Origin: Perkinsus olseni
Lineage: Eukaryota > Perkinsozoa > Perkinsida > Perkinsidae
Direction of reading: 5' to 3'
Assembly (NCBI GenBank): GCA_013115135.1
Contig: JABANP010000147.1
Coordinates: 44,201 to 108,200, forward strand
DNA length: 64,000 nucleotides
The notes beneath the pieces were generated by a model that saw nothing but the letters and a program-made list of their open reading frames with translations, made no database searches and was not told where the DNA came from. This document shows, piece after piece, positions 3,578 to 46,664 of the stretch. Position numbers and translations under genes: made by a program. Each line of letters begins with the position of its first letter. The stretch's first letter is position 1.

Positions 3578-5989
3578 ATGTATGGCGAACCGGTCCCTCT
3601 CAACTTCACACGCAAACGTCGGTACCCAGGAGATCAGCCTGAGCTAATGGGAGTGGATACAAGGTAAGGGCATGGATAGTGTGGATCATACACAGTGCAC
3701 TCGATGCTGTAGGTATTCGCCACCAATGCCACCTCCATTGATGCCCCCTCCTCTGACTGGGATGGAGGTGGACCCCGGCCCGCCTACCAGAGGGCCCGAT
3801 GGATACTCCTGGGAGGTGATAACGTTATATTGATAATAGTAGAAGTTGGAGTATTAGTATACGCATGCATCTTATACACTCAAGATCAGCATTCCTGTGT
3901 GTATCATTACAGAGAGGAAAGTCGAGTATAGAGGGAACAGCCAGGGGGTTGCGCGCCTTGGAATTTAGTCATCCTTCCCTTGCTACTTCCCTCAATCACC
4001 ATTAGTATGCCCGGCCTTGTGTATCCATTCGTTGTTCAGAATTTGGTATTCGAGACCATCGACCCCGCAGTGCCGAGCTTAGCAGTTAACCTACCAGTAC
4101 CATTGGATAGAGCTGGCTTGGTGGTGGGAGTGAGAGGCAATACAGTCAGGGTAGGTGCATCAGTGCAGAGTAATGCATACCACTCCTTTCGTTATTCAGA
4201 GTCTAGAGTCCCAATGTGGAGTTGAGATTAGTGTTGCTGTTCGTGATGATGACCCTCTAAGAGATCCATCGACTAACACAACTCATGTACACGTTAGAGG
4301 CCCCAAGTATGGCGTTTATGAAGCCATGCAGAGGATTGGGTAATAGTAGTGGTGGTCGGGTACGGAAGAGCTGATGGAATGCCATCTGTGGCTATGCCAT
4401 TACTCGATCCTTCCTCAGGGATCTATTTCGATATCGTCACCCGTTACCGGAGATGCACACGCCCCCTCCTCCGCCAGTGGTTCCTTCGGAGTTACTACCA
4501 CCTCCCCTTCCCGTGATGAATCATCATAGTGCCTACGAAGCCAATCCTGAGTCTCTCTCGGCGGTGGATAAGCCCAATCTAGTACGACACAGTGACCTGC
4601 GAGTCGAGAGTAATTTCGTGGCGCGGTGACGTTTAGGTATCTTTTGATATCTTGGATGACCATTGTGGTTTGGTAATTGGCAGGAGAGGTCGGATGCTCG
4701 CTGATCTACGTGAGGAATCCGGAGCATCAATCGAACTTGTATCAGGAGACGATCCTACCCAACCTAAGTAGTGGAGCATGCGTGCAGTAAGTGAATCATA
4801 CCACACCTTTGTCAATTCAGGAAGTGTCTGGTATGGTCGTCGGATCCTGATAAGGTTGATGATGCGTTGGTTCGACTAGCCCGAGTTTTGTCTAGATTGC
4901 CGGACGCCCTACCGGTGCCACCGCCGAAGAATCCCGAGGCGGAAGAGAGGGTAGCATCTTTGGTTGAACACTGCGAGATACGAACGAGGTTGGGTGAGAC
5001 TATCTTCTCAGGCATTGAACCCACGCTGGGTGGAAGAAGACTACCGGGGAGGACCGCCGACGCCATCAGTGCCTGTGGCAGGGTAGGCGGAGCGAAGGGC
5101 CTCATGTTTAGCACTTTTGCGTTCAGGTTACCTCGTGTAGATGTAAGTGCAGCCACGGCAGCTGTTGCTGTTTCACACTTCGACTCACCCGAAGCGGTTG
5201 ATGCTTGCGCCCCGAGTAACGCCCTCAATGCAGCTCTCGACGGATCTCAGCTGTATCCCTTCAGATCGGGACACGCCTCTTGATACACCAGTCGAGTACT
5301 ATGTAGATGTACCGGCTGATAAGGCAGAGCTACTCACTGATCGGACCATGCAGGTAGGAGCGGCATATCTTGAGGTTAAGCGTGCTAGATACGGAGTAGC
5401 TAATAATAAGTAGCTCAATACTCTTACGTGGATTCGAACCCGAGACCATTTTCTCCAGGATCTCCGACGACGATCACAATGCTACGTTGAGTTGATGCCG
5501 ATCGATGATGAGCAAGAGTCGAGCGAAGATGCTCCTCTCATGTGGCGTCGGTTAATGCTGTACGGGATGCCGGTACCAATACATTATGCCATCGTCAAAC
5601 TGAAGGACATCATGAAGGGTGAAGGTAAGTTATGATATATTTTTACCGCGCGCCACGAAATTGATGCCCATCGTTTGTGTCAGTCGTTGAGGTTGGTGAT
5701 AGCGCGAACACCAAGGTGAAAGAGTATCCGAAGATTGGGGAAGGTGAGATGACGAGGCGTCGTCCCCACAACTCTCAGTTTCGTTTCTTGCCAGTTGATT
5801 CGGGTACGCCCTCGACACAGTATAGTCGCATGCAGGATGAAGCTGATGCAGAGAAGGGCAAGGTAGGATGATGGTGATGGTCATCATTGTTATTATCGTG
5901 TTGATCAGTATGATGATGAGTGGAGGAGTTATTATGCCGAGTTGCACGTATCAAATCCCCCATCTCGCTACGCCAAACCTTCTCCTTAG
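3578..5989 (+). CDS. Multi-KH-domain RNA-binding protein
   Basis: Probable start MYGEPVPLNFTRKRRYPGDQ, followed by a proline-rich stretch (YSPPMPPPLMPPPLTGMEVD). Three KH-type folds follow. KH1: PVPLDRAGLVVGVRGNTVR, then after an intron SLESQCGVEISVAVRDDDP. KH2: ILDDHCGLVIGRRGRMLADL, then REESGASIELVSGDDPTQP, with a proper GxxG loop. KH3: VDVPADKAELLTDRTMQ joined over an intron to DLRRRSQCYVELMPIDDEQ, lacking a clear GxxG. A C-terminal tail ends YYAELHVSNPPSRYAKPSP and TAG at 5987-5989. Introns seen at 4151-4199, 4768-4820, 5354-5458, 5625-5683 and about 5870-5910. Known: KH domains bind single-stranded RNA. The exact start is a guess; the frame around 5150-5350 was not fully resolved. Confidence 0.65.
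4151..4199 (+). repeat. KH-gene intron, copy a of a related intron pair
   Basis: A 49-nt intron splitting KH1; splicing gives GNTVR-SLESQCGVEI in frame. Its 3' part (TGCAG, then CATACCACTCCTTTC, then ATTCAG) matches the intron at 4768-4820. The 15-mer CATACCACTCCTTTC recurs at about 30363 downstream of MAF1, also after TGCAGAG. Confidence 0.6.
4768..4820 (+). repeat. KH-gene intron, copy b of a related intron pair
   Basis: A 53-nt intron just after KH2; splicing joins PTQP to KKCLVWSSDPDKVDDAL. It aligns with 4151-4199 over its 3' half (TGCAG, ATACCACnCCTTT, ATTCAG). A minus-strand stretch at 3163-3190 matches AATCATACCACnCCTTTGTC. Confidence 0.6.
5354..5458 (+). other. Intron with antisense tRNA T-arm-like module
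   Basis: A 105-nt intron inside KH3; removal joins AELLTDRTMQ to DLRRRSQCYVELMP, which restores a KH helix. On the minus strand 5430-5447 reads GGTC, TCGGG, TTCGAAT, CC: the variable-loop end, T-stem and T-loop of a tRNA in exact order. The T-stem is only partly paired. The 3' splice AG lies 11 nt beyond the GGTC element, where a tRNA anticodon loop would be. Confidence 0.7.
5625..5683 (+). other. Intron with GCGCGCCA motif, second copy
   Basis: A 59-nt intron with a strong GTAAGT donor and TGTGTCAG acceptor. It shares CGCGCGCCAYRAAATT and the TGTCAG end with the intron at 2027-2083 in the neighbouring gene. Confidence 0.5.
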
Positions 5990-6754
5990 TTTATCAGTGT
6001 CTCTCCTGTAGTCGAGTTAATAATCAACGAAGGCCTGTCAGGAGGAGGGCGTGGGTGGTCTTTAGTACACATCTGGGGAGCTGATTGTTGGCGTTCAGAG
6101 CTTGGCTGATTCTGTCGAAACCTCCAGAACATGTTCGAGATGCTTCGAGTGCACTCGCCGCCTTGCAGTACAATGGAGTAATACGACTAAGGACACTCGA
6201 ATTCGTCACAACAATTATTCGGCCATCGTACGGTCACTACGCTCACGCTACCCTCCCCATAAGGGAATGCATGTATCTTCGACTTGACATAATATCGATT
6301 GTGAAGGTTGGGTATCGGTCAAGATTCCAACTAGGTATGCTGTGTTGCCCCTGGTAGTATCTGCAATAGCCTTGGATTCGGTTGTGGATAGAATAGTCGT
6401 TACGTAGGCTTCAGTGCGGAGACCACGAATGATACATGGATTTACATTGGGATCATTCTTCCGAGAGCTCCATTAGTATGTTCATCAGTTCGGGCCACTG
6501 TTGTCATTGTCATCCTGATGAGACTCAGTCCCCTTCGGTATTGCGGTAAGGTATTACGTAAATCAGACTTTATAAAGACAGAAGGGGTTCACCAGAGAGT
6601 CTTCCGATGGGGTATTGGCAATCGATTCCGATCTGCTAATGCCAATAGATATCAGCCCGTGCACTTGGAGAGGATAAAAGAGGTAGTAGAGAGACCAGCT
6701 GTCCACCGGGCGTGCGCTGATCTCTTCGGACTCTTCTTCTTGATGTAGTCGTAC
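5990..6754. other. No confident gene
   Basis: Several overlapping open frames of 60-90 codons occur on both strands with no recognisable domain. The frame 6518-6748 (WGIGNRFRSANANRYQPVH, then HLERIKEVVERPAVH) could be an upstream exon of the AP2-like gene but I cannot connect it. Confidence 0.4.
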
Positions 6755-7145
6755 ATGAATGCGATGGGAAGGGATCAGTAGTGAGCGGGTTCGTCTCTCT
6801 TCTCGAGGTAACACTGAACGATGACTACTACGACAGCCCAGATCCGAATATACGTTGGGATGATTATTCTGAGTGTTGGGAAGTGTATTGGTATGAGCAT
6901 GAGAAGCTCAATGCCAAGCCTTTTCCGGTAAGATGCTGTGAGTGCGGATCGAACCTGGGACCGTCGGACAGGTTAAAAAATTTGGTATAAAGTGGTCTAA
7001 GGAAGAGGCAAAGAAGTTTTATGAGGAATTGAAAGAGAGTGGTCGAGTTCATGCTCGCCCTTCACATAAAGGCGGGGATGATTCCATCATGTGGGATGAG
7101 AGGATGCAAGGATGGGCAGTGAGCTATTGGCAGAATGGAAGGTAG
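6755..7145 (+). CDS. AP2-domain-like DNA-binding protein
   Basis: The frame gives an AP2-type fold: IRWDDYSECWEVYWYEHEKL (three beta strands) then, across an intron at 6928-6971, FPVKKFGIKWSKEEAKKFYE (end of strand 3 and the amphipathic helix). This matches the apicomplexan/dinoflagellate AP2 pattern in which SFSVKKYG is followed by an EEAK helix. A second unit may start with IMWDERMQGWAVSYWQNGR before the TAG at 7143-7145, or the gene may continue past an intron there (a GTAGAC donor overlaps the stop). Known: ApiAP2 proteins are sequence-specific transcription regulators in alveolates. The start is uncertain; ATG at 6755 is the nearest upstream in-sense candidate and needs a further junction before 6813. 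Confidence 0.6.
6928..6971 (+). other. Intron with antisense tRNA T-arm-like module
   Basis: A 44-nt intron (GTAAGA donor, GGACAG acceptor) inside the AP2-like domain; splicing joins AKPFP to VKKFGIKW. On the minus strand it reads GGTC (6959-6962), CCAGG, TTCGATC, C: tRNA variable loop end, T-stem 5' strand and T-loop in correct spacing. T-stem pairing is degenerate. The tRNA-like part covers most of the intron. Confidence 0.75.
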
Positions 7146-8486: not shown

Positions 8487-8900
8487 ATTCTTCTCCGACT
8501 TCGATGGTATATGTTGCCGCTGTTGTTGGGTTAATAGTGGTCAATCGTGATACTCGCTTAAAGCGGCGATAAAAGCGCTTTCATCGCCGCTTCTGGTGAC
8601 TGGAGATGATGTCTGAGCTCATGGGGCGAGGATATACCGATACAGCCGCAGCTGAAGCACTCCCTGAAGCCTGCTAGCGATGCTGTGCGTTGTACATGTT
8701 CGTGCACAGTATAGCTATCGATGCTGAAGAGTGTTTACAGGTATTTATAGAAATTCCTGTCTCTGCAAAATTTGGACTTTACTCTACCGTCGTGTTACAC
8801 TGGGTTATCCCACATCGTGCCCGCGCACTTTCCATCCTGCTCGTATCATCCCATGCAGGCGACTTACACCTTTAGCCTGTTGTCAAGTTGTTTTGGTTTG

Positions 8901-11900
8901 ATGTTCTCACGTTTGTGTATCCGACCATCGAGTAGAGGGTACAGTACTATTGCCTCTAGCGTGCCCAAGGAGGTGGACACTCTCATCGTTGGAGGTAAGC
9001 ATCAAGCATAGGTGTTGCATTGATGCTAGGGATGTGTCGATGATCTATTCAGGCGGCATTATAGGGGTAGCAACAGCATATCAGCTCTCTCGACTAGCTG
9101 GACCATCCCATAGAATACTACTCGTCGAACAGAACACCCTCACGTCTGGCACCACCTGGCATGCTGCTGGTCTCCAGACTGCACTCAAGGGGGTTAAGTA
9201 GGAGGATGGTCACCCATCACTACCCACCCGTCGACCATCGCAGATGCATCGCTAACATGGCCAGAGAGGGGCATAGGTTGTATCAATCCTTTTGATGAAG
9301 GAGTAGGCTGGGCCAAGACAGGCAGCCTGGGCATAGCCCGAACTGAAGGTATGTCTACTACAGTCCCCTTTGATGGTCGTATGGTATGGACAGATCTCTG
9401 GACGCAGTTGCTGCAGATGGCAAACATCTCGGAGTCACTCGGGATACCCTATGAACTGTGTGATGCCAGTAGGATTAGCCAGGTAGCCATTACTCACTAC
9501 ACCTAGCCCCTCTCATACCTCAACCACGAGATGGAAGATATTTATATATTTCCCAGCTGTCTCCAATACCGCACCATTCTCAGATCCATCCATATTTGGA
9601 TACTACCGGAGTTTATGGTGGTATATACACCCCAGAGGACGGTATCGTCAATCCAGCAGATGTTACCATGGCGATGGCTAGTACCGACCACCGCCGACGC
9701 AACAACAATACGGCCCCTTCTCAGCTCGAGCGAGAGCCCAAGGGGCCCATCTACTGGAGAGGACGGCCATTCGTCGTATAGTGAGGGATGGTCGCCGAGC
9801 CCATGCTGTTGAACTCGACAGCGGGGCATCGGTGCACATGAATAACATCATCATCTGCGCAGGTGACAGGCTGCAGCGGGTGGTGGGCGTCGTCATTGTG
9901 AGGTCAGGTCAATGGAGTAAGGGTATCGTCAAGGAGCTGGGCCTAGGCGACATCCTCCCAGCTGCCGTTGTGCCGCATCAGTAAGGCCTTTGGCACCACT
10001 GCTTGTAGGACCCTCATGATCAGGTATGTCGTGTTTGATAGACTTGAAGGGGTGTCCAATAAGTTGCCTGTTGTCCGAGACTACCTCAACAAGTTCTACC
10101 TCAAGCCTGAAGTAGGGCTTCTTGTGACTACAACACCCCACCCTCTATTCTTTCTCGAGGTTGGCGGTTTTATGGTTGGAGTTTTCGAATCCAACCCCGA
10201 GGTCCACTTCCCACCAGATGTGAAGGAAAGGAACGCGTCAGGAGCAGTAGCATCTACCAGCACCAACTCCATCATGGTATGGTCATCACCCGTAGGCGCC
10301 GCGAGACATATCGCATGAAGTCTTCCCGGAGAGCATAGACAAAGCGGGCGAGTGGCTCGAGCGTACTGCCACTGCCTCCTGTTCATCCCCATCATCGACC
10401 TTAGATGCCTTGGAGACCGTCCCCGCCTTGCAGGAGGTGGGTATAAAGCGTTGGTTACACGGCCCCGACACGCATAGTTGTGATACCGCACCAATCATGG
10501 GCAGGCTTCTTGGCACTGATAATGTCCACATATGTAACCATCTGTGAGGACCGTCGATGCATGGGAAGGAGGAGCCCTGGCGTAGGTACTGGGTTCAATT
10601 CCCAGGGCATACAATGTGGTGCGGGTGCTGGCCTCGCTAATGCCGAGTGGATCCTCTATGGGTATCCTAGAAGCTTCAAGGACGACTTCGTAGCAGCTGA
10701 CGTCAATCGTTGGTATCCATCGTTAGCTGAGGACCCTGACTGGTGTGAGGGGAGGGCAGCTGAGGAGTATGGCATCATGTAAGTAGCCATCGAGGGTGTT
10801 GTCAGCATCTGTCCCTCTAGGTATGGGATCCACTATCCCTACATGCAGCTCCACAGCGGCCGCAACCGACGCCTCCTGCCCCTTCATGAGGAGCATCAAC
10901 GCCATGGTGCACGCTTCTTTGAAGGCTTCGGTTGGGAGAGGGCTGCTTACTATCTCCCGACCAATGTCGCGCGCCACGAAAATCCTTATTCTTGGGGCCT
11001 GGGCAAGACCGAGTGGTTCGAGGCTATGAAGGAAGAGGCCCGGGCTGTTCGGCAGCACGTCGGTGTTATTGACATGTCGTCTTTCGGCAAATTGATGGTC
11101 GAGGGTGATGGCGCAGGAGAGCTCCTCCAGTGGGTCTGTACAGCTGACATTGATCGACCAATCGGCACCATCGTCTATACGGCCATGGCCAACGAACGCG
11201 GGGGTATTCTTGCTGACTTCACCGTCACTCGACTAGGAGAGGACAGCTTTTATATTACTACCACTTCCAACCAGCCCGAGATGATAAAAGATCATCTACA
11301 CTGGGCGACGGCGAGCCGAGGCACGAAGGGAGTTACCATCAATGATGTCACCGACGACATCGCCGTACTACTACACCCACACATCAGGCCTGTCGTCAAG
11401 CTCCCATCCTCAGGTCTTATCCGTGATGGGCCCGAAGAGCTTCGAGCTGTTATCCTCTCTTGGAGACGGAATAGATCTTCATTCGACCATACCTCTATCA
11501 AGGGCGAAGGATGAGCTGATGCTTGCAGGAGTCTCCTGCCGAGCGTTGCGTGTCTCGTAAGTCCCCCTGGCCCGTCCTGTGCTGTGGATGCTGCTCCATC
11601 GCAGTTATGTCGGAGAGCTTGGTTTGGAGCTTCACGTTCAGAAGAGTGAAGTCAAGAAGCTGTTCGACGGGATCATGTCCGGAGGGAGCATCCGACCTGT
11701 GGGTTGTTGCGCCGTTAGTCTGCCGCCGTCCATTCGTTTTTCCGAACAGCGGTTGGTGGGCTCCTTAGCCATGCTCGACTCATTGAGGATGGAGAAGCGC
11801 TTCCTTCACTATGGTCATGACTTCTCACCGATGGAAAGTGTCCTACAAGTTGGCCTGGGTTTTGCATGCAAGCTCAAAACAGGTGAAGGCAAGCGGGGCT

Positions 11901-12480: not shown

Positions 12481-12484
12481 GAGC

Positions 12485-13111: not shown

Positions 13112-15404
13112 CTAGCCAGGGACGGGTTCTCCAAGCATCTCAAACAGTGACTTCTTGTCCAGAGGGCATCGAACATTGGTCGGATCCTTCGTGGACGCCG
13201 TCTTGAACCACTTCTCGATACATCCTCGATGGTACCTTCCCAATACAACATCATAAATCCAACATCCTCCTACAAGAACTCACCGATGCTCGCAAGGCAA
13301 CTCAATAACGGCCTGTCTGGTCTTCATAGGCTCCAAACAAATCGTACCTGAAGCAAGCATAGGGAATATTCGAGATTGAGCCAACCTCACATTCTCGGAA
13401 GTCATTCGTGTCGGGGTCCACGTCGCCCTTCTTGATGACAACCCTCGTACACTTCTTCAGCATCTGATAGAATGATAGATGGCAATACCGAAGAGCAGGC
13501 CCTCGCCCTCGTACTGCTGGTATCGATGGAGGTGGTGGGCCACGTTGGGGCATCCGACCGCGCAGGAGGGCTTCAGCCACCGATGAGTGGTACATGTTAA
13601 TATGATGCCCCGGTGGCCCAAACCCGGCCACTGCCGCTGCTCCCGGCAACAACCAATTGTAAGCCTGCAGCATATGATCATCGGTGGTCGTAGAGGTATG
13701 CACCGCTACCAGTAGGCCCTCATGAAGGCCATTGTCGAAGCCAAGCACTCGACCAGGGTCCTCCATCACCGGCTGGGGCTGCTGCTGTTGTGGAGGTATC
13801 CGCATATCCAAGAGGAGATCACCGCCGTTTTGGCGTCTGTTGTTGCGTCGACGTCGAAGTTCCCTGAACAAGGCGGGGTGGGTGAGCATGCAGGCCTGCA
13901 TCTCCGAGCCTACCCTTCACGATCCATCAGCCTCCTGCTTCTCAGATGACTCAAAGTACTAATGACCTGTTAAAAGATGTGCTGGCCGGGGATCGAACCC
14001 GGATCCTTTCGATTGCCTACCCGATCTACTTCCGCTTCATCGTTAGCAACTGCGTCCTGGAAGATAACATCAACTCCAACATCCGCTGGCCTGTACCTGC
14101 GCTTGATGAGTGTGGATGATGATGATGGACGAGTTATCCTCCTCACATCGCGCGGCTATTGGGGGCACATTCGACGTGAACAGTTTTGACCATCAATCTA
14201 CTGCGGTAACAGAGAACAGTCGAGTTGAGCGATATGTTGCGGCGGCAGACCTACAACAGAGCTGGGGTGTGGCGAGGAGACGATGGCGCCTTACTTCACA
14301 TCGTTGACGATTCCCTCGGGGATAGCGAACTGCATAAAGAGGCCGATCACCCTCGCCCGGTTGAGGAGTATCAAGATCTCGCAAGTCAGGCAAGTTACCT
14401 CCGTTATACCTCCTAACACCCTGAAATGATCTACACTACATCCATTGGCACTGCACGAGGTATCACCCCAGCTCTGAGCCTCTCCCTGTTCGCCCGATTG
14501 ATGAAGGCATTAGGCAATGGGTGGGCGACAGGAGGAGGAGGGGCACCGAAGACGTCTTGAATGCCGACAGGAGGGTTGAAACCGAGATGACGATCGAGTG
14601 CCTGAAGGTAGCGTAGGAAGGGGGAGGATGGCGTGGCGGCAACTACCCGCAAAGCGCTGTTATCCAGCCTGTTCCTATGTTGCCATCGCAAGCCCCAATT
14701 GGCTCCTGGCTGCCCTGGTCTCCCCTACGAACTCCACATCATCATCATCATCATCTTCGGCATCATTATGGTCAGTATCGCTATGATGGCCCCCCTCGCT
14801 GGCCTCGTCCTCGGTGATCGCTATTGGTGCTGCACCAGCCTCGAAGTCCTCATCATCGAGGAGGTCTACTTCAATGGGATCTAGCAGCATTCTAGGCTAA
14901 CCGCCGAGCAGTGAGTGGGTATCATCCCCTACTACCTTCCACTACTGCTTCCAGCTCATCATCATCTTCATCATCGTCAGAATCCGATGATACCTCCAAC
15001 ACGTCCACCGGCCCTTCATCTTCAGAAGAATCGAGGATATCAACAACAGCCGCCTCCGGTTGGGGAGGTGGTGCAGCAGGAGCTGCAGCAGGGACCTGAG
15101 AACAGACCAGTCGTTTTGCTACGACATACCATAACTTACACTGCTCGATGATGAGGAGGAGGTTGCTGGGTCCTGAGCAGGCTCTTCCCTCCCGGTGGTG
15201 AGGCCCAGACCCATCCTCGATCTTCACTGGTGACAGTCCAGAAGAGGATGACGAGGAGGACGATGATGGATGGTCATCAGGATTGGCTGAGTGACCAGTC
15301 GTCTATCGCGGTACAACAATTTAGTAAATTCCAAGGTTACCTGCAAGACGCTGCCTCTTCCGGCTGGGCAGGGGGTCTTCCTCCTCTCCTGACGCAGCAG
15401 CCAT
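13112..15404 (-). CDS. RING-H2 ubiquitin ligase-like protein with acidic N-terminus
   Basis: Start MAAASGEEEDPLPSRKRQRL, then introns and a Ser-rich stretch (HPSSSSSSSSGLSP, KIEDGSG), an acidic block (VVDILDSSEDEGPVDVLEV; ITEDEASEGGHH; DDDDDDVEFVGETR), and a middle region HRNRLDNSALRVVAATPSSP with LGFNPPVGIQDVFGAPPPP. Later exons give VDVIFQDAVANDEAEVDR, an intron at 13967-14020, VISTLSHLRSRRLMDREGEL and QNGGDLLLDMRIPPQQQQPQ. The C-terminus is a RING finger: TICLEPMKTRQAVIELPCEH, then YHRGCIEKWFKTASTKDPTN and RCPLDKKSLFEMLGEPVPG, with TAG at 13112-13114. Known: RING-H2 proteins recruit E2 enzymes. The acidic and Ser-rich part looks disordered. One junction just before the RING (about 13325-13360) is not exactly placed. 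Confidence 0.65.
13967..14020 (-). other. Intron that is a sense-oriented tRNA 3' half with a perfect T-arm
   Basis: A 54-nt minus-strand intron; splicing joins DEAEVDR to VISTLSHLRSRR, and the frame stays open through the next intron. On the minus strand it runs GTAGGC, AATCGAAAGG, AT, then CCGGG-TTCGATC-CCCGG (13986-14002), a perfect 5-bp T-stem with 7-nt T-loop, then CCAGCA as an acceptor-stem remnant and CATCTTTTAACAG. The TTTT after the acceptor remnant is where a tRNA gene has its Pol III terminator; here it also serves as polypyrimidine tract. There is no matching 5' acceptor strand, so it is not a whole tRNA gene. Confidence 0.85.
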
Positions 15405-15436: not shown

Positions 15437-15473
15437 CTGACAAGGGAGGAGGAAGAGGTACCGGGTTCAATAC
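15437..15473 (-). other. Possible 5'-UTR intron with antisense tRNA T-arm-like sequence
   Basis: A 37-nt GT-AG candidate (GTATTG donor, TTGTCAG acceptor) just upstream of the RING gene start. On the plus strand it ends GAGGTA, CCGGG, TTCAATAC: variable loop, T-stem and T-loop, cut inside the T-loop by the splice donor. Weaker than the others because no reading frame fixes this intron. Confidence 0.4.
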
Positions 15474-17017: not shown

Positions 17018-18203
17018 CCCTGCGCCGCAGAGCCGAGGCCTAGAAGTGTATTCTGCTTCTCAGGTAGATACATAACATTCGGTGATTTAGCCAGAGTCTC
17101 CGCAATCTCTCGAGCAGCATCGATTCTTCTCACCTAACAACGACGACGACGATGATGATGGTATCGCTATCGATCATCATCATGCTTCACAATAATTACC
17201 TCGATGAGGCCAGTGCCATGCTCCTTGAGTGCCTTGGATATCATGGTAGCAGCCTCAGCCTCACCCTCAGCTCTGATAACGGTGGCTATCCTCTCTTGCT
17301 CGGTCTCTACGGAAGAATACTATGTTATGTAGTAGAGTTGAATGTTGGTCACTCACTGGCAACGACAAACTTCTGCCTCTCGGCCTCCTGCTCGGCAACC
17401 TGCTTCTCCTCAATAGCCTTGGCAAACTCCTTACCATAATTCAAGTGCGTAATGGCAACATCATCCAGAGCAATCTGATAACAGTTACATTTCCCAACCG
17501 TGCGACCCCGGTTCAATCCTCACATCGAATGCTTGGCATCGGTCGACTACAGCATTCCTGATCTCACGCGATACCTTCTCTCTTTGTGTCAGTAGTTGCT
17601 CGGCGTTATATCGAGCAACAACAGCCTTCAATACCTGACGAAGCATACACAGTAGCAGCACAAGGGATTGCAGCAACAGCAACCGACCTCATTCCCAACA
17701 GAAGGCAAAACTCTCTCGGCAAAGTCGGGTCCAAGAGACTTGTGGATGGCCGGCAAACGCTCAGCGACAGGACGGTAAAGCAGACGGACATGGATCGTAG
17801 CCATCTGCAGGTCCTTGGTACCTGAGGTTCATAGTATCTTAGCTTGAACCATGTAGGATACAGAACAGGCTGAATTTACCTGTGGTCGTTTGAATGAGCT
17901 TAGGTTTGATCTGGATTGAGTACACATGTGGTCGCTGGAACCACGGGAGCCTCACATGAGTCCCTTCGCCGTATATTTTATCGGATACACCCCCGAAGAC
18001 CTAAGATATCCACAGGTTGAGCAGGCAAGATACAAAACAGGTCTAGTTCCTGGCGTAATTACATTCCACATGACTGCCCTCTGGCCACCATCCACATTAA
18101 AAAGGCATGTGTTGCAGAATAGGCCAACCCCTCCTGCACCAAAGGCTGCTAATGCCAATCCGGATAGGAATTTATCAGCTCCAGCAGATGATGCACTAGC
18201 CAT
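17018..18203 (-). CDS. PHB: Prohibitin
   Basis: Start [20 protein letters not shown], then an N-terminal membrane-associated helix and [11 protein letters not shown] joined over an intron to [20 protein letters not shown]. The SPFH/band-7 domain follows: [94 protein letters not shown] and [18 protein letters not shown]. The C-terminal coiled coil ends [15 protein letters not shown] with TAA at 17018-17020. Introns number at least seven. Known: prohibitins form ring complexes in the mitochondrial inner membrane. PHB1 versus PHB2 is not certain, because motifs of both appear. Every region of the family is present, so the gene is probably functional. Confidence 0.92.
17475..17523 (-). other. Prohibitin intron with antisense tRNA T-arm-like module
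   Basis: A 49-nt intron fixed by homology: removal joins RCQAFD to [11 protein letters not shown], a conserved stretch. On the plus strand 17501-17519 reads TGCGAC, CCCGG, TTCAATC, C: variable-loop end, T-stem 5' strand and T-loop of a tRNA. The T-stem 3' strand (CTCAC) is degenerate. The tRNA-like part is antisense to the gene. Confidence 0.75.
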
Positions 18204-18574: not shown

Positions 18575-21084
18575 ATGTCGGTAACATCATCACCAAGAGT
18601 GGCTGAGGAGGAGCAGACACCGACCGAGTTATGGAGGTAATAATGATGCTAGGGGTTAGCAATAGGGGACTAGCATGATTCCAGCAGGTCCTTGAACTTC
18701 CCCCTCCTACTCGAGGAGATGTCCAACACCGTTGATATGATGGCCGATTGTAGGGCTCGTAGTCTTGAGTCTAAGAAGCAGCTTGCAGAGGACACGAGTA
18801 AAGGGATGCTACTAGAGTATGAGGTCATAGGATGCTGCTCTTAGAGGCATTCCAAAGGCGGTTATTGGCGACCTCCTCGGGAGTATCTTTGCCGCACTGT
18901 GAAGATTCATCATCACCATCACAGTGGGATGAGTTGTTGAAGAGTTATCAATCGGAGATCGACGCTCTGAGTAGGAGAGCCAAACATGCCGAGACTTCCT
19001 TCAATAAACTCTTCCAGTGAGTCCTCGGCCAATGGTAGCAGCGGTAGTATCAGTATTATCACTGCCTCAGATTGCTCAAACCTCTACCCGATCCCCTGTC
19101 GGCCGCTGATGGTCTCGGGGCCACTGGTGATGAGGAACAGATAGATGAGTTTAGTCGGGCTATACGGATGAAGGACGATGAGATTGTCAGACTTACTACG
19201 AAGGTGTTGAATAGGACTACTGTAGGGCGTGATGATCATGTGTCTTCAGTTGCACGACCTAGACGCGGAGTTCTCTACCCTCACCAATCAGGCTGTGACT
19301 GTACGCCGACTGCGAGAGACTATCAAGGCTAAGGATGATGAAGCTGATGAGAAGGTTAAAGCAGCTCTTAGCGAACAGGCGGAGGAGTTTAATAGAAGAC
19401 TCCATGCCCATGGTATGGAAGTTGATGATCATAAACGACGGCTACAGCAGGAGTTGGACATGGAAATACAGCGAAGGAAGGAGATGGAAGATTTAATAGC
19501 TAAAGCCGAGGAGGAGAGGCTCCAATACTCGAAAGTATCTGAGGATAGTCTGCAAGCCCTGGCCTCTGAGAACGAGACACTAGCTGCAGTAGGGTAGCTA
19601 TTGGCATTGCATCATCACAGGATGCAAGTTTAGGATGTCGATCGGCTCACTGCTGAGGTAGAGGCTTTGCGGACCCAACTCAACTGGAAGAATAGTAGCT
19701 CGCAACACTTAGATGGATCCAATGCGTAATAGGTAGAGAGGGCTTGGCTTTGGCGACGATTGGTTGTACTTCAGGACGGTCGAGTTGAACCTCCAGCAAG
19801 AGCGGGCGCGTAGTGAGGCACTCGAGGCCGAGTTGGCTGCATTACGGGCCAAGGCCGATGCTGATAGAGACGAGAGACAGAATGCCATTGATGAGCTGCG
19901 GAGGAGAGAATCTCAAGCGTCCGAGGAGTTAAGAGCGACGATAGAGAGACTTGAACACCAGGAGAAGGAAGTGATGAGGCTGAGGGCTGTAGAAGAGGAT
20001 CTCGGAAAGTACTGCACCTGGGATTTGAACCTGGGCGGATTCCATTTCAACGTCAGGTGCCAAGCAACACTGAAAAGGATGAATATCGTTGAATACAGTA
20101 CGGACCCCTCAGAGGGCACAACCGAGGTCGAGCGAATGCTGCTGGGGAAGGTGGGGGTGGTGGTGCGTCAGGGGGCCCTTGTCAGAGTATCTGCTTAGGT
20201 TAGGAACTTGGAAGCTCAGTTGGCCCCTCTCCGTGTGAAGGCCTCTGAAGCTGATAGTATGGCAGACGAGCTGAGACGACGGCAAAGTGAAGTGATGACG
20301 TTGAAGGAATCCTTGGACAGGCTGGAGAAGGAGGTTACTGCTGATGTCATATTCTACGCTTCTTCTCGTTGTTCAATCGTCATTGGCTAATGCTACAGGC
20401 CTCACCATCATCATCACTACCGTACACTGCGACGGCGGGTGTCAGTAATGGGGAGGGCAGTTCGACCGAACCATCCTTATTGGATATAACACGTCAACAA
20501 AGAGATCATCTTAGAACTAGAGTATTGGCTCTTGAGACTGAGAGGGATTCTCTGAGGGTGGAGGCTGGGGAGAAGTCGAGGAAATGTGATAGACTTTATG
20601 CGGATAATGTCCGGCTGCTGGAACAGAAAAAGTAATAGTCATTACTATTGCTCGTCCATCATGTATTGGGCAGGTACTGGCAATCTGTGAGTGGCGGCAG
20701 CAGCAGTAGTGTCGAGGCTCCTACCGGAAGAGCACGTAGTGGTCTCCTTGTAGTCGTCATTATACTGTATCTTGAGTAGGTATCATACCCGAGTTGGATG
20801 ATGGGGAGGATGATGTGGAAATGCGGTATATGCCAGCATACATGGAAGGGGTTATATTATCACCATTCGAGACCTTCAAGACCTCAGAAAGAGAGAAGAG
20901 GCTGATGAAACTCCCAACGGGGGAACGTATGATTGTAATACTCCCGAGATGATTTCGGGGATGTGTGGTACTGTTCTTTGATCAGGTCCAGGTTTTAACT
21001 CAAATGGTTGGGAATAGAGTTACGAGGATCGCAGGTGGAGTGTACCTGTTGGCTTTACATCTGCTAGTCTTCATTGTTTTGTAA
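18575..21084 (+). CDS. CASP: CASP-like Golgi coiled-coil membrane protein
   Basis: Start MSVTSSPRVAEEEQTPTELW, matching the CASP N-terminus where an LWxxF motif is followed by long helices. Then LLKSYQSEIDALSRRAKHAE, very close to the family's LLKxYQxEIDxLTxRxKxAE, and LKPLPDPLSAADG for the PDP motif. A long coiled coil follows (VELNLQQERARSEALEAELA; DELRRRQSEVMTLKESLDRL; DHLRTRVLALETERDSLRVE). The C-terminus carries PAYMEGVILSPFETFKTSER and then VTRIAGGVYLLALHLLVFIV, the family's single C-terminal membrane segment, with TAA at 21082-21084. Known: CASP is a Golgi membrane protein, the short product of the CUX1 locus in animals, with a role in intra-Golgi transport. Many short introns. Confidence 0.85.
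20009..20056 (+). other. CASP intron with antisense tRNA 3'-half-like module
   Basis: A 48-nt intron; removal joins AVEEDLGK to CQATLKRMNIVEY in frame. On the minus strand it reads GTTGAAATGGAATCCGC, CCAGG, TTCAAAT, CCCAG, GTGCAGT: a long variable region, T-arm with three of five pairs, and an acceptor-like end. The longer variable part suggests a Ser- or Leu-type tRNA source. Nearly the whole intron is tRNA-like. Confidence 0.75.
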
Positions 21085-23753: not shown

Positions 23754-26690
<2,937 letters not shown>

Positions 26691-30464: not shown

Positions 30465-31366
30465 TCAGCCTCCGAGCCTGTTGTATGACCATGAACGTAT
30501 CTTGATGTCGCCTTCACTGCGAACAAGAGTAACCCTAATAATGATTATCGTTATAGTTATTTTTGTATGGTATCGTTATTACTCTTATGCTTATTATCAT
30601 TGAAGAAGTAATGGAATTGCCAAAGATGTGATCCAGAATCATCATCAGCTGCTGTCAGAAGGCTCAGATCATCAACCTAACAACAACAAGATACTAGCGA
30701 CAGCATCATCATGATGGGGACCATTACCAGCTCATAGACTTCTGTATCGATAAAGCTAACACAACTCTGTACTGCACCCCACAGCTCAGCTACTAACCCT
30801 GGTTGGGCTAAGTCTAGTGATGTGCCAAAGTACTGATTAACTTCACCTGATGATGACATTGGGGTGGCGATGACGCTGATGATTGGAGTGGTAGTATTAT
30901 TACTAACAACCTCAGCTGGGTCTTCCTTCTTAACAAAATGATCAGGGCTTAGAGTGTTGAATTGATAATCAGGGAATGTGTCGTTCAATGCTCCGATTAA
31001 TGTAACCAATAATTGTCTTGAATGCTGAGCTGATAATGGCCCTAATGGTGATGCCTTCAATAGATGTGGTGATGACCGTAGCTCATTATTAAGACTCTTC
31101 TCTATAGGTAATGGTATTCTATTATTAATATCCTGGTTGGCACTACTACTGGATATGGTGGCGAATAATTCTAATCTGCAATCTAGTCTTAGATCGGCCA
31201 AGTCCAATGTATTGATCCTTGCTGATATTTGCCGTAGTTTCTGGTTATCAATCCACTGCATAATGGTATCCTCAGTATTATCAAGATAATCGTCTTGGTA
31301 GTAGTGACGGTAGGAGGAGGAGGGGAGGGGTGATGGTAAGAATAATATACCTGCAACATGCAACAA
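30465..31366 (-). CDS. MAF1: MAF1, repressor of RNA polymerase III
   Basis: N-terminal part DYLDNTEDTIMQWIDNQKLR, then INTLDLADLRLDCRLELF, the first MAF1 homology box. The second box is LVTLIGALNDTFPDYQFNTL, SPDHFVKKEDPAEVVSNN, and LVAELWGAVQSCVSFIDTEV with YELV. After introns the third box reads SHLWQFHYFFNDNKHK and RVTLVRSEGDIKIRSWSYNR before TGA at 30465-30467. Known: MAF1 shuts down tRNA and 5S rRNA transcription in stress and binds the Pol III clamp. All three boxes are present and in order. The start exon is not resolved; it may lie beyond an intron ending at about 31367. Confidence 0.85.
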
Positions 31367-31649
31367 AGATAGCCAAGGAAGTTCAGATTGAATGAAAGTG
31401 ATCGATGTCAGTAGCGCTCGCCCGAAGGATTAACACAATAATCAGCATACCTTCCTGCAGTCCCCGGTCCCTGATCTTGTCCATTCGTTGCAGTACCCTG
31501 ATGAACTTCATCATGGATTAGCTGCGTTTAAACCCATGTCCATGAGGGGAATCGTTCGGGTAGGGTTTGGGGAGAAGTTGGTATTAGTTATCGTAATGGG
31601 GGCGGTTGTACGACTTTGTTGTGCTGCACAGTTTGTTGTTGTTTCGATA

Positions 31650-34088
31650 ATGACTTCATCATCGTCATCACATGCCAATACGCAGCGGAAAGCGGCTCCT
31701 ACAGTAAACACCTCGGCACAACAACAACAATCGTCGATGAATGCAACTGGAAGCATTCCAAGCCAGAATGAAGAAGTGATAATAACATTCTGCATCAGTC
31801 GTGGCCAACCTCTCTTGTATCTTGCACGGGACACCTTTAGATACGGTACAGTAGGTTTGGGTATTATACCCGACTCGCTTGGTGCCCTCCATGTTGCCGA
31901 GACCCTTGATGATACCACTCCTCCCCCTGCTCCTACCACTACTGGTGCTGATGCTATTAATAACCGTGATGATTTCCTAAAACTACTCAATGAGGTGGCT
32001 GATTATCATGTAATGATAATACTGGGTATCGTACATGGTCTATTCATCATCATATTCATCAGATTAATTCCCGAAAGCGTATCTCTGACTTCGCGAGGGA
32101 GTTAATAAAGAAGGGCGGTGGTTACGAGGCATTGACATTCAAAGACCTATACAACATGCTATTGGATCTCGGACAATGTAGTCTTCTGTTGCCAAGCTGC
32201 TGCTGCTGTTGATAGGATGATTATTATTAGGGAAGGACCCAGCAGAAGAAAGGGGTATCAATGATAGGGATATTCAATCACTAGCTATGAAGTAATGTAC
32301 TTACTACTTCTGCACCGCTTCAACCTTTATCATACTTGACATCAGGTACGATGATGATGAGGTTAATAAAGCTGGTGAGAGGATGATGTTAGCTCAGCAA
32401 GGTAGTAGCACTACTCAATAATACTATCGTCTAGTTATTGTCTATCATCGTAGGGGGTATTAGTGTACCGCCAGTTCATGCTACTAAATCGGTGGCTGAT
32501 GGTATTGATCGGAAGAAGGTCATCAGCATACATAAATTCATGAATAAAACGTAATGGTGGTCCAGACAGCATCATCACTCAGACAACAGCAGCAGCAGCA
32601 CATCTTACTACAGGTTCTTGAGGCTTGTGGCGACCTTCAAGAAGATACCGCAAACTGAGCGCTATGAGATGCTACCCAAAGTGGTGGAGGCTGCCGCTGA
32701 GGTTCATGTAATAACAACAACAACAAGCGGTATGTTGGTGATACATTATCGATAACCTGTCTAGGTTACTTTAAAGGTTTATTCTGAGTTTCATATTGAT
32801 GCTGATGACTTGGAGATGGCAGTTCAGCGCATGGAGAAGCAACTCGAAGATGATAAGGCTTATCAACAGGTGAGGATTATGATGAGAGTGATTATCGCCT
32901 TATTGGTATCATCAACTTGCAGGAGGCGGAGATGTTGGCTCATACTATGGCTAAGTTGCATGAGTACTGCAGACCATTGGTAATAGGACAACATACAGGC
33001 ACTAGTACTCGATGGGAACGATACCTTAGTTACTCGAAGATGAATTTGAGAAGATGATGGAGTTACTTTACGAGCAGAATACAAGCACTCGGAAGTTGTG
33101 GGCGAAGCTGTATGACATGTTATTCTCTTCTAAAGGGACGCCTGATCACCACAAGATCAGCATCAAGGTAGTGGTGGTAGTAGTGAGGGTGATTGTTGGA
33201 CGATGACCTGGTGTTAGACGGCATACAGGGAGTTTGTCAAACATACCAAGGAGAACTCCAAAGCCATGAAGGATGCAGGCTATCGTAAGCTCGGTGGTGA
33301 TACCTAGTGTATCGAGTTGCTGATGCTGCTGCTGCTGTTGTCAGCTGAATTGAACCCACTTGAGCTTGGCGACCTATATGGACGGTATAAGGATAACGAC
33401 AAGATTCACAATATTTGGATCAAGTCCAGTTGTGATCTAGCAGCCTATCTACAGGTAGTCAGCATCTACAGTTATGATACCATTCTACTATACATGTACT
33501 CCAACAACAGGTGATGATGATAGCAGCACAAGGCCAGATGCCACCACCACCTCCCCACCTAGTGTTATGAAGAGAGTCAAGAATATTACAGCATCCCAAG
33601 TAAGCAGCGTCTCATGTGTAGTTGGTAGAGTAGGTGGTGTTATCAGGTAGTAGCCATGCAGAGTTGTATGACAGCATGCTTGGGGTTGATAAAGACTATG
33701 ATGAAGTCAGAGGATAACCCTGAGGAGGTTTTCGATGCGCAATATGCATTACCATTCGCCCAAGGTGTAGCATCAATTGCTATAGAAAGGGAAGATAGTG
33801 GCAAGGGTTTGACTGGAGAGGATTTAACAATAGCGGGGATGATGCATTCACCCACCCTTCAAGGAGACATGAAGTACATTCACCCCGATAGATCCTCGGT
33901 TCGAACCCCGCTCATGTCATTTTAACAGGTTTATGGAATCGTCAATGAAACAACAGCAATACATATCGGAAATAATGCAGATGTGTGGCGGAGCGAAGCC
34001 TCCTGGAGGTGACCAGTATGTTGGATACATCACAGAAATGACATCGTTATCAGGTTCACAACAGCCTAATGCCTGTAGTATAATGTGA
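31650..34088 (+). CDS. Alpha-helical protein ending in a CaaX prenylation box
   Basis: Assembled through at least ten short introns. Segments include AINNRDDFLKLLNEVADYH, KRISDFARELIKKGGGYEAL, TFKDLYNMLLDLGQ, LEDDKAYQQEAEMLAHTMAK, YEQNTSTRKLWAKLYDMLFS, YREFVKHTKENSKAMKDAGY, LGDLYGRYKDNDKIHNIWIK, CMTACLGLIKTMMKSEDNPE and EVFDAQYALPFAQGVASIAI. After the intron at 33874-33928 the tail is FMESSMKQQQYISEIMQMCG, then GGDQYVGYITEMTSLSG and QQPNACSIM with TGA at 34086-34088. CSIM fits a farnesylation CaaX box, so the protein is probably membrane-tethered on the cytosolic side. No family is recognised. An upstream Met at 31488 with a hydrophobic stretch is possible but fits poorly with a CaaX protein. 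Confidence 0.55.
33874..33928 (+). other. Intron with sense tRNA T-arm-like module and T-run
   Basis: A 55-nt intron (GTACAT donor, TTTTAACAG acceptor); removal joins PTLQGDMK to FMESSMKQQQ in frame. It contains TAGATC, CTCGG, TTCGAAC, CCCGC and ends CATGTCATTTTAACAG. The end resembles the tRNA-like intron at 13967-14020 (CACATCTTTTAACAG). The GGTTCGAACCC core is near-palindromic, but spacing supports sense orientation. Confidence 0.7.
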
Positions 34089-39757: not shown

Positions 39758-39781
39758 ACCACCAGAACCAGCACCAGCAGT

Positions 39782-41959
39782 ATGGCTTCTCTGCGGCCCA
39801 GCACCAGCAGCAGAGGCGTTGTGTATCTAATAATATCATGCCTGATAAAACCGAATGGAAGCTTCTTACACGGGTATTGATCATACAGGAGTCTTAGGCG
39901 ATGGTTAGCACCATCGTCATCATCATTCTAATAGGTGGAGTATGAACGTATTAAAGTAGATAATCCGATAGTAGAGTTGGATGGCGATGAGATGACGAGG
40001 ATAGTCTGGCAAATGATCAAGGATAAATTAGTAATAATAACATCACCACGGAAACGGTAGCAAAGACGATGATGAACCTTTCAATAGATATTCCCATTCC
40101 TGGATATGGATATTGATTATTATGATCTATCACTTGAGAATAGGGATAGGACTAATGATGAGATAACAACAGATGCTGCGAAGGCTATCCTCCAGTAGTC
40201 TTCCTCCTCCTGATTCGCACGTGTATACTTGTGTAACCTATACAGGTATAATGTCGGTGTTAAATGCGCCACTATCACGCCCGATGCAGCCAGGGTTGAG
40301 GAGTTCAAGTTGAAGAAGATGTGGAAGAGCCCCAATGGGACCATTCGTAACATCTTGGATGGCACAGTCTTCAGGGCTCCGATAATAATACGTAATATAC
40401 CACGGTAATAATCGAAAGGTCTGGGGTTCGATCCACATCGAGGACACTTCTTAGATATGTCCCCGGTTGGGAGTACCCTATTGTTATCGGCCGTCATGCT
40501 CATGCTGATCAATATAAGTGTGAACAGTTCCAAACTGATAATACCCCGGGTAGGTGGTGTGGCCAGGAATCGAACCGGGGACCTCCCTATCCGTTAGGGA
40601 CGGTCGACTTGGTATTCCATCCCAATGACGGGTCTGAAAGTAAGACTGTGAGGTTATTCGAATTCAAGGAGGAGGATGAGGGTGGTGTGGTTATGGGGAT
40701 GTAATGGCGGTGCATACACGCATCTCATCACCAATCATACCCCTTCAGGTACAACACGAAGAGATCCATCGAGAGCTTCGCTAGGTGTTGTTTCACATAC
40801 GCCTTGGGCCAGGTAGTAATGACAACGGTCATCATCGTCATCATGCCTGTGAACCGATAGTAGTTATGTTAATATTTGTTGGTGTAGGGCATGCCTCTCT
40901 ACTTCTCCTCTAAGAACACTATTCTGAAGGTCTATGATGGTGTCTTTAAAGACGTCTTCCAACAATTATATGACAATGAATACAGGTAGGACAATGATGA
41001 TGATGTGGATATGATTCATCATCCGTCATGACTATAATGTTTAGGGATCAATTCGAGAAGGCCGGGTTGTGGTACGAACATCGTCTAATTGATGATATGG
41101 TGGCACAGGTAGTAGGGCTCATGGTGGTACTAGGTCGGGCTGACAAGTGCTCAACTTTATTCTGTAGGCCATCAAATCCAAAGGTGGTTTTGTGTGGGCA
41201 TGTAAGAACTATGACGGAGATGTTCAGTCTGACATTGTCGCTCAAGGGTAGTTATATCACCGCTAACCAGCCAATTCGGCGGTCCCGGGTTCGAGTCCCA
41301 GATCGTCCATATTTAGATACGGCTCACTGGGGTTGATGACGTCTATCTTGGTCTGCCCGGATGGTAAGACAGTTTTGTCAGAAGCTGCTCATGGAACTGT
41401 TACAAGACATTTCAGAGCGTACCAGGTAAGGCACGGATGCTGCTGCTGGCTGCCTCCTCATTAATTATACTCAGAGGGGCGAGAAGACTTCAACCAATCC
41501 AATAGCATCGATATTTGCCTGGTCGAGGGCTCTCAACCAACGAGCCATCCTTGATAATAATAACAGACTCAAACACTTCGCTCAGGTGAAACCTCAATTG
41601 ATGATGATTCCGATCGGTGATGCTCAGGCCCTCGAAGATGCGTGTATTGAATCCGTCGAAGCTGGTTATATGAGCAAGGATTTGGCGATATGTGTAGCTG
41701 GCACGTCTAAGGTCAGTTGTTGCTACTCTTCATCCCAGAGGGCCTCCTTCCTCATCATCAGGTATCTTCTGAGCAATATCTCACCAGTGAAGATCTTATC
41801 GACTACTTCTCCGAAAGGTGCTTATCCATTCTAGGTATTCATGAGTGGTGACGGCGGTTTATCAGGTTGAAAGTGAAGTTGGCGAAGCCTCTAAGGAAGC
41901 GGTATGCTTTGGTTGGCCCTCGACTTGACCCTCCAAAGTACAAGTCGGAAGACCAATAA
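39782..41959 (+). CDS. IDH: NADP-dependent isocitrate dehydrogenase
   Basis: A first exon [12 protein letters not shown] may be a targeting sequence; the enzyme then runs [225 protein letters not shown] and [20 protein letters not shown]. The substrate-binding SPNGTIRN and [12 protein letters not shown] motifs are intact. TAA at 41957-41959. Known: it makes NADPH from isocitrate. Eukaryotic-type homodimeric family. About twelve introns, three carrying tRNA-like modules (40405-40454, 40550-40597, 41248-41316). Confidence 0.92.
40405..40454 (+). other. IDH intron with sense tRNA 3'-half module
   Basis: A 50-nt intron fixed by homology: removal joins [10 protein letters not shown] to [11 protein letters not shown]. 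It begins GTAAT, AATCGAAAGG, then TC, TGGGG, TTCGATC, C. The block from AATCGAAAGG to TTCGATCC is 25 nt, the same length as in the intron at 13967-14020, and 21 of 25 positions agree by hand. It starts six nucleotides after the intron start there and five here. The T-stem is degenerate; the end is GAGGACACTTCTTAG. Confidence 0.8.
40550..40597 (+). other. IDH intron with antisense tRNA 3'-half module
   Basis: A 48-nt intron; removal joins FQTDNTPG to [13 protein letters not shown] as in other IDHs. On the minus strand: CTAACGGATAGG, GAGGTC, CCCGG-TTCGATT-CCTGG (four of five T-stem pairs), then CCACACCA as acceptor-like end. So the intron reads as the anticodon stem 3' side, variable loop, T-arm and acceptor strand of a tRNA, end to end. 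Confidence 0.85.
41248..41316 (+). other. IDH intron with a longer sense tRNA fragment
   Basis: A 69-nt intron; removal joins [10 protein letters not shown] to [11 protein letters not shown]. It reads GTAGTTATATCACCGC, a 15-nt stretch, GGCGGTC, CCGGG-TTCGAGT-CCCAG (four of five pairs), ATCGTCCA, TATTTAG. It may therefore reach back into the D-arm side of the source tRNA, with the anticodon stem remnants CCGC and GCGG. Confidence 0.8.
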
Positions 41960-45400: not shown

Positions 45401-46664
45401 TGTGACGGCTCGAGCAGGGGGAGAAAGGAATACTTTTATTACTTCCTTCTGCATTTGCTGCTTCACTAGCATCACTCAATGATAAGAAGTAGCTACAAAT
45501 TGTTGAAGTTGTGGTATACAGATTCATTACACATAAATTAGCGAGGCAATTGCATGCATCATTGTGTTGTAGTTGTGTACATCGTAAGGGCGCATGTAGG
45601 GAAGTACCCCATGATGATATCATTATTAGGATAATAGTATACATCATCAATAGCTACAGATATCGCACGCAACTTGGCAAAGGTAGTATCATCATAATAA
45701 CCTATGATGACAACAACAACAATAGTGGTATATGCTTGATGCTACTACTACCTCTGATTAAGGCTAGAAGATACTTCTCATAGTCGACCATATTGGATAC
45801 AACATGCCTGTATTGAACCCTAGACAATAAGTCTAGTGGTGCTGTCTTCTGTGAGGTTCTACATCCAACCAAAGATACTCCGGCACACATGGAGATGCAG
45901 TGGTAGGCCTCCATAAACTAGCAAGTGATGATACAGACATCCATCACCCTCTACTACCGCACTACTGCTGAAGTAGTGTTATCATTACCCTTGGGCACAG
46001 TCACAGCCTGGGGATGTTCTGCTACTCCGGACTCCCACGGTATTTGTCCACAATGATATGATGATGGAATGGTATGAGCAGGGTGACATAGGAATGATGG
46101 AGGGGTGGTGTGGTTGGGCCGCAGAGTAGTTAGTTAATAATGATGATTCAGGATCGGTGCATCTGGTAATGCTGATTACTATTATTATTACCGATACTAA
46201 TAACACATGTATTACTACCTGCAGGTATTACCGTCCGATCCTAGTACTACCCCGTCCGCGGCTGGACATGTATAACATGCTGTTTGATAGATATTGGGGA
46301 CTGTGCCATTGGGACATGGTCTACAACTACTGCTGCACGTATTTGATAGACATCTATAGTGGTTACGATGATAATGATATTGATGTAGTTGTGGTACCTT
46401 ATATGACCGGCTGGGCATACACATGATGTTGCTTGATATGATGGACTTGTTGTTGTTGCTGTTGTTGTGGTACTATTATTGTACAGTGATGGATGAGGGC
46501 ATGGTGTACATTGTAGGGATGTAGTATGGAAAGCCTTGCCCTATGGTCGAACATGATGTTGGATCCTTCAATGGTATGATGTATCCTGATGGTGTATGAT
46601 GAAGGATTCCTGTTGATAGTAGGAGGAGGAGGAGCATATGATGTGATATGCTCATCATGATCAT
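42482..46664 (-). CDS. TMEM67: Meckelin / TMEM67, ciliary transition-zone membrane protein
   Basis: Signal peptide MIMMSISHHMLLLLLLSTGI. Cys-rich ectodomain: GKAFHTTSLQCTPCPHPS, RCLSNTCSSSCRPCPNGTVP, ACYTCPAADGVVLGSDGNTC and ACNCLANLCVMNLYTTTS, the last matching meckelin's CQALxNMCVMNM. Then CTTPLFYELYIQYDHND, RYYLCDTTNEAIVRIAAITR, and membrane helices (YWIPIIALFIPWTTISLIIA; FILVQTFLTSILLSHTAFFM; FVPPPPGSAHYRSFDALLIY). Conserved VSAWRMLFIGNELNERSTYP follows VSKVFVFLFWTENKDY, then FGDTLGDFVDVCSLANISVL and GWYIHGKAPSGKADCNATQL, aligning with human VSIWRTYFVANEWNE and FVDLCSMSNISVF. Known: part of the MKS complex at the base of cilia. Its presence fits an organism with flagellated spores. The 3' exons below 42750 are tentative. 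Confidence 0.88.
45808..45862 (-). other. Meckelin intron with sense tRNA T-arm-like end
   Basis: A 55-nt minus-strand candidate intron (GTAGAA donor, AATACAG acceptor) in the ectodomain. On the minus strand it ends CTAGACTTATTGTC, TAGGG, TTCAATACAG, with the 3' splice site directly after the T-loop. The CTAGAC/GTCTAG repeat could form a hairpin. Homology is weak at this point of meckelin, so the intron limits are less sure than for the others. Confidence 0.45.

Follow-up and report, generated by a model that had tools for sequence, protein, structure and literature searches.

We analysed a window of 64,000 nucleotides of Perkinsus olseni (assembly GCA_013115135.1, 61.5 Mb in 968 contigs; contig JABANP010000147.1, window C54:44201-108200) in which eleven short introns or intron candidates carry a stretch, here called the module, that resembles the 3′ half of a tRNA. 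An earlier note on this DNA had proposed that these introns were gained by insertion of tRNA halves or of a tRNA-derived element. The sequences and coordinates of the eleven intervals are as the note described them, the module lies in sense to the host gene in five and in antisense in six, and GGTC stands exactly five bases before TTCGA in five intervals (those beginning at 5354, 6928, 40405, 40550 and 41248). The intervals were scored with a tRNA profile hidden Markov model (HMM) trained on 13 intact tRNA isotypes from the same genome, with no module used in training; ten of the eleven gave scores, ranging from 5.4 to 18.0 bits.

Four introns of the window are confirmed by protein homology as GT-AG introns, of putative U2 type, whose predicted removal restores the coding sequence. 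Three of these interrupt an isocitrate dehydrogenase (IDH)-like gene on the forward strand. Across the first (40405-40454, 50 nt, module sense, 12.5 bits), the junction RNIPR^YVPGW aligns without gaps to solved IDHs; at the second (40550-40597, 48 nt, module antisense, 14.8 bits), the alignment of the spliced protein to solved IDH has a gap of one residue next to the junction; and across the third (41248-41316, 69 nt, module sense, 13.8 bits), SDIVAQ^GYGSLG again aligns without gaps. The gene finder called the first two exactly and gave the third a wrong start, at 41282; this intron opens with GTAGTTATATCAC, in which a resemblance to a tRNA D-loop is visible by eye. The fourth intron (17475-17523, reverse strand, 49 nt, module antisense, 6.4 bits) was also called exactly and belongs to a prohibitin-like gene, the spliced product of which aligns gaplessly to solved prohibitins and matches the Pfam family Band_7. 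About one third of the introns of the IDH-like gene contain a module, the others being module-free.

Contig 490 carries two IDH paralogues in tandem (171500-175100; L110 and L111); both consist of uninterrupted frames, and their nucleotide match to the window skips 41248-41316, an empty site. Because they lack all the introns of the window gene, these paralogues prove intron boundaries, not the direction of change. The window copy (40106-41430) is intron-rich and more diverged than the two tandem copies. Searches with the prohibitin region and with the L082 region returned no informative paralogue.

Four other intervals are candidates on the basis of GT/AG ends and reading frame, not of homology. 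The candidate at 5354-5458 (forward strand, 105 nt) has GT-AG ends and an antisense module, with its core at 5427-5450 on the reverse strand (8.2 bits, model positions 42-65); the frame is open when spliced and has a stop when unspliced, and the spliced piece has no Pfam match. The same behaviour of the frame was found at 13967-14020 (reverse strand, 54 nt), where the candidate, with its module in sense (18.0 bits, model positions 36-68), ends in TCTTTTAACAG and the frame is open for 135 nt upstream and 54 nt downstream, and at 33874-33928 (forward strand, 55 nt, GT/AG), where the candidate, with its module in sense (11.7 bits), ends in ATTTTAACAG and the frame is open across the splice; neither was called by the gene finder. 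At 20009-20056 (forward strand, 48 nt, GT/AG, module antisense, 5.4 bits) the gene finder predicts exon and the frame is open spliced and unspliced alike, which makes this candidate weak as an intron. The 44-nt intron at 6928-6971 (forward strand, module antisense, 8.9 bits) was called exactly, and its junction is spanned by a weak AP2-domain match (E 0.0096, below the curated cut-off). The last two candidates are doubtful: 15437-15473 (reverse strand, 37 nt, module antisense, 6.8 bits) lacks a frame that stays open over 60 nt on each side, and 45808-45862 (reverse strand) has no match to the tRNA HMM and an open frame of only about 100 nt on each side.

The RNA polymerase III (Pol III) B-box motif GGTTCRANNCC occurs ten times in the window, against 0.8-1.0 expected. 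The earlier note had counted seven; this was too low, while its expectation of about one and its six sites inside the named introns stand, four others being located at 5021 (reverse), 10592 (forward), 35458 (forward) and 50146 (reverse). Further matches to the tRNA 3′ half were found on the forward strand at 379-418 (11.8 bits, model positions 33-72) and at 10582-10605 (10.9 bits), the latter in a gene-finder exon. For genome-wide counts, the same pattern read backwards served as control. The B-box motif gave 6,046 matches versus 1,033 (a six-fold excess), the 21-nt core AAAGGTCCCCGGTTCGATCCC gave 330 matches with up to one mismatch versus 0, and the 14-mer GTAATCGAAAGGTC gave 65 copies versus 0. 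Modules resembling the tRNA 3′ half are scattered through the genome in thousands of stretches and are not confined to introns. The note had named a frequency no higher than in shuffled sequence as grounds for abandoning its proposal, and these counts give no such grounds. Chance likeness due to base composition may apply to individual members, the candidates at 45808 and 15437 being weak and the control implying that chance would account for about one in six strict B-box matches; for the family as a whole the same excesses already refute it, and its probability is negligible. Box A of the tRNA 5′ half, TRGCNNARYNGG, shows no excess like that of the B box (3,893 versus 3,801 in the control, genome-wide). 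A narrower form, TAGCTCARYNGG, gave 364 versus 111, many of the listed sites belonging to a single tandem array of contig 154.

Judged by its sequence, the module core clearly descends from the 3′ half of tRNA. The profile search covered 204 kb (the window, five 10-kb pieces and 30 loci around A boxes) and yielded 51 matches of at least 7 bits, versus 3 in five shuffled copies. Among the matches listed, 27 of the 51 fall outside ARAGORN tRNA genes; six of these 27 are near-complete tRNA genes or overlapping loci, and 18 of the remaining 21 cover the 3′ part only (model start at 32 or later). Eight partial matches of at least 7 bits remain in the 121 kb left when the window and locus L039 are omitted. 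The modules match this independently built profile at 3′-half positions, and module positions 37-48, which lie outside the B box, also track tRNA. When the 21-nt core was scanned through a collection of bacterial and archaeal genomes, four loci were obtained, all four inside intact tRNA genes (Ile, Thr, Phe and Phe), with the core at the same tRNA positions. A decayed, nearly full-length tRNA match (L039:7505-7569, model positions 3-68) is possibly a link between intact tRNA genes and halves.

The modules themselves are not intact tRNAs. No intact tRNA was found in the window by ARAGORN or by Rfam at gathering or lax thresholds; Rfam gave no tRNA-family match at 18 loci, where a single tmRNA match corresponded to a T-arm-like stretch, and ARAGORN detected an intact tRNA in 0 of 20 core copies. 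A set of 83 nonredundant modules was selected by tRNA profile and core pattern, after removal of seven near-duplicates from 90. Copies of CCA-tailed mature tRNA were rejected as a source, CCA being present at tRNA positions 74-76 in one of the 83 modules (L097), about the level of chance. TTT occupies these positions in 18 modules, and this T-run in place of CCA (18/83 versus 1/83) favours a copy of a precursor or gene over one of mature tRNA. Three viral-contig matches to a 16-mer were also discarded, as their flanks are unrelated.

We examined how much tRNA structure the modules keep. The T-stem pairs 49-65, 50-64 and 51-63 are predicted in 45, 50 and 22 of the 83 modules, respectively, versus 45.7, 50.1 and 30.9 in shuffled columns; that is, pairing in this set shows no excess over shuffled columns, and an intact T-arm is not seen. 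The four prokaryotic tRNAs have GGG after the core, a feature present in 0 of 20 core copies. Variation was measured in 17 copies chosen by GTAATCGAAAGGTC alone, from 20 loci (two paralogues and one locus without the exact motif were excluded). Pairwise identity was 0.863 for the B box, 0.324 for acceptor positions 66-71 and intermediate for the two T-stem strands (0.485 and 0.453), so that the acceptor part is near random between copies with an identical 14-mer. By these comparisons, tRNA structure is gone in the modules while the B box is better kept than its surroundings.

With the T-stem unpaired, the acceptor part variable and the B box kept, the data do not support intact tRNA halves having simply been inserted. 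This bears directly on one explanation, according to which halves of many tRNAs were inserted repeatedly and independently, and each intron would be a fragment of one tRNA gene or of a cleaved tRNA. Some copies do resemble other isotypes by eye (L072 is similar to Ile-TAT and L039:6304 to Phe), the nearly full-length match at L039:7505-7569 fits such an origin, and the comparison with modules sampled only part of the tRNA set of the genome. Set against this are T-stem pairing at the level of shuffled columns, the missing post-core GGG and the nearly random acceptor parts, and we regard the explanation as rather unlikely. The tRNA 3′-half origin put forward in the earlier note accordingly survives as sequence descent, borne out by the independent profile and by a 21-mer that, in the bacterial and archaeal genomes scanned, is located only in tRNA genes, and as a 3′ bias, seen in the lack of an A-box excess; insertion of intact halves of many tRNAs is not supported.

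The best-defined members form a subfamily, GTAATCGAAAGGTC...TTTTTAG, which begins at the 5′ splice site and whose copies are alike from end to end in unrelated genes. In 19 copies fetched by GTAATCGAAAGGTC, the common sequence runs from GT onward, and the upstream flanks are unrelated except in paralogous pairs. One intron of the subfamily (L039:5201-5255) matches ten other places with 87-95% identity over 36-52 nt: four paralogous pairs (L128/L150, L144/L145, L146/L147 and L148/L149) and two single places. In the four pairs the similarity extends from GT to the T-run and AG (the copies in L144 and L128 measure 46 nt), while L117 and L099 have no clear T-run/AG end. Similar introns in non-homologous genes, a feature of introners, are found here, as the 65 versus 0 copies of the 14-mer and the ten matching places attest. 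The claim that the module starts near the anticodon loop holds for this main subfamily. In a separate case, the paralogues L122 and L123 (C64) resemble each other until the module's B box is reached, and their similarity is lost exactly there, in the manner of a breakpoint.

The association with introns was assessed with predicted gene models. Of three gene-finder settings, the first under-called and a self-trained one drifted and over-called; the conservative one was used, with which several of the named introns are missed or wrongly placed. For motif-chosen loci, the baseline was the share of predicted intron in those sequences beyond 80 nt from the module. The midpoint of the module fell in a predicted intron at 6 of 20 exact-core loci, versus a baseline of 6.9% of bases (exons 2, neither 12), and at 6 of 28 B-box loci of contig 1, versus 7.4% (two tRNA genes of the original 30 were dropped). 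Across all sampled loci, the conservative models placed a module in 9 of 168 predicted introns, the corresponding counts being 4 among 3,380 shuffled introns and 36 among as many exon pieces, one tRNA gene miscalled as an intron having been dropped. Neither the window, chosen by the finding itself, nor L039, taken where B-box matches had been listed, is a neutral sample, and the counts were repeated without them. Omission of L039 gave 7 of 154 introns. Counted by module, 10 of 29 lie in introns that cover 4.3% of bases under the conservative models (7 of 23 at 4.1% without L039), and 11 of 29 in introns covering 18.9% under liberal models (8 of 23 at 18.4%). In motif-chosen loci the enrichment in introns is real; in the small sample that is neutral it is modest, and modules also lie outside introns. 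The intron-likeness of tRNA genes is shown by a real tRNA-Asn gene (L063:1427-1505), which the gene finder called an intron because its D-loop gives GTAG and its trailer a T-run followed by CAG.

Enrichment alone is compatible with tRNA-derived repeats having been inserted into pre-existing introns, which tolerate insertions. Such an insertion is expected to add about 40 nt, and the difference found was only about 4-5 nt: without L039, the median length was 50 nt for module introns (n=7) versus 46 nt for the others (n=147), and with L039 included, one boundary being corrected by homology, 51 versus 46 nt. In addition, the common sequence of the main subfamily begins at the donor, and insertion into existing introns appears very unlikely. 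The module makes up most of its intron, as the earlier note had maintained. These lengths fit the introns of Perkinsus, which span 39-1622 bp and are mostly shorter than 100 bp (PMC3101222).

Taken together, our results favour, with a confidence slightly better than even, an introner-like family of tRNA 3′-half descent, that is, short GT-AG spliceosomal introns made almost wholly of such an element. The element would correspond to the 3′ half of a tRNA gene, from about position 33-37 to the trailer; it would have spread genome-wide in both orientations, as introners do, and copies that entered coding sequence would be spliced out. When the element lies in sense, the former anticodon loop would have become the GTAA 5′ splice site and the T-run of the old Pol III terminator, with AG, the 3′ splice site, whereas in antisense the splice sites would come from changed ends or neighbouring bases. 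The copying route would most simply be a 5′-truncated reverse-transcribed tRNA-like transcript, which would explain the 3′ bias. The B box may persist because it is required by active copies or by the cell, for Pol III or TFIIIC binding. Mobility, intron gain, the copying route and the reason for B-box conservation are what we infer from the patterns described. From the proposal of intron gain by tRNA-half insertion, this reading retains the descent and the module that fills its intron, without intact halves of many tRNAs; one subfamily acts as a repeated element. The broader idea of tRNAs as a permanent supply of new spliceosomal introns, in which the tRNA 3′ half already contains the makings of both splice sites and the element has made thousands of introns in this lineage, in both orientations and with a Pol III B box kept in introns of Pol II genes, is tentative.

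The conservation of the B box, far better kept than T-stem and acceptor, could also reflect a function at the DNA level, in which the modules would be extra TFIIIC (ETC)-like or boundary sites tolerated in introns and not traces of intron creation. The presence of both orientations and of many modules outside predicted introns agrees with such a function. However, the tRNA-likeness of positions 37-48 extends beyond the B box, the module fills the intron in the confirmed cases, and TFIIIC binding at the modules is itself putative; we consider a purely DNA-level role unlikely.

Several points weigh against the introner-like family. Among the 28 B-box loci, 12 modules lie in predicted exons and 10 in neither class. 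Without L039 and the window, a module is present in 2 of 96 predicted introns, and the enrichment by module is not significant under either the conservative models (2 of 11 in introns at 4.0% of bases, p 0.07) or the liberal ones (4 of 11 at 18.2%, p 0.12). An open-frame test on short loci did no better than control, with 10 of 21 (at least four with too little flank) versus 12 of 19 control GTA sites. The reversed pattern behind the genome-wide counts may differ from the true background. Splicing rests on protein homology in four cases, gain versus loss is not polarised, and the IDH paralogues could be intron-free retrocopies. Similarity near both splice sites is seen in L039:5201-5255 and the four pairs, most other copies sharing the core only. 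By-eye inspection of the aligned copies revealed neither target-site duplications (TSDs) nor terminal inverted repeats (TIRs), and ARAGORN found no intact tRNA in the fetched copies L088-L131, so that the parent tRNA is not among them.

Some observations concern the genomic surroundings of tRNA genes and RNA processing in this species. On contigs 778, 823 and 154, tRNA genes or A boxes are arrayed in tandem at intervals of about 150 to 185 bases. A tRNA-Tyr-like gene at about 1494-1580 of L070 carries, by eye, a short tRNA intron. The window encodes a Maf1-like gene, a Pol III regulator, at 30677-31426 on the reverse strand. The sequence CCGTAGCCATYTTGGCTCAAG, which we take to be the spliced-leader motif, has 183 genome matches with up to two mismatches versus 0 in the control, the exact matches among those listed being all of the C form; this is what a perkinsid or a dinoflagellate would be expected to show.

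The origin of new introns is a long-standing question, and the introners surveyed in PMC9860276 either go back to DNA transposons or have no identifiable source. A tRNA-derived class, if true, would connect intron birth with Pol III genes and explain how so small a piece is spliced at once. It would also offer a tractable system, with thousands of copies and named donor and acceptor parts, in which a comparison of strains might reveal gains. The main text of PMC9860276 contains none of the words tRNA, SINE and Perkinsus. Among the papers listed in searches on tRNA-derived introners and introns, tRNA halves, short interspersed nuclear element (SINE) or Pol III introners and Perkinsus introns, introners or tRNA, none describes such introns in its title or abstract opening. 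This hints that an intron source of this kind has not been previously described.

In introners, sequences that resemble one another fill introns of unrelated genes; they lie in either orientation and supply splice sites themselves or borrow them (PMC9860276, PMC7789003). Families with a median length from 30 nt are reported (PMC9860276), and many are tied to DNA transposons by TSDs or TIRs, others being without such features (Gozashti et al. 2022, PMC9860276). The modules likewise fill introns, in both orientations and in unrelated genes, as do the introners of Gozashti et al. (2022) and of Amoebophrya (PMC7789003). Unlike introners, the core described here is tRNA-derived and includes a B box, and most copies share the core only. 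The modules also resemble tRNA-derived SINEs and tRNA pseudogenes in being tRNA-derived, dispersed and provided with a Pol III B box. Such SINEs are longer and retain both box A and a body. By contrast, the modules show no genome-wide A-box excess, and their best-defined subfamily measures 46-50 nt and behaves as an intron. ETC sites, finally, consist of a B box without a complete tRNA gene, a trait shared by the modules, which differ in their thousands of copies, in being tRNA-like back to the anticodon loop and in lying partly within introns.

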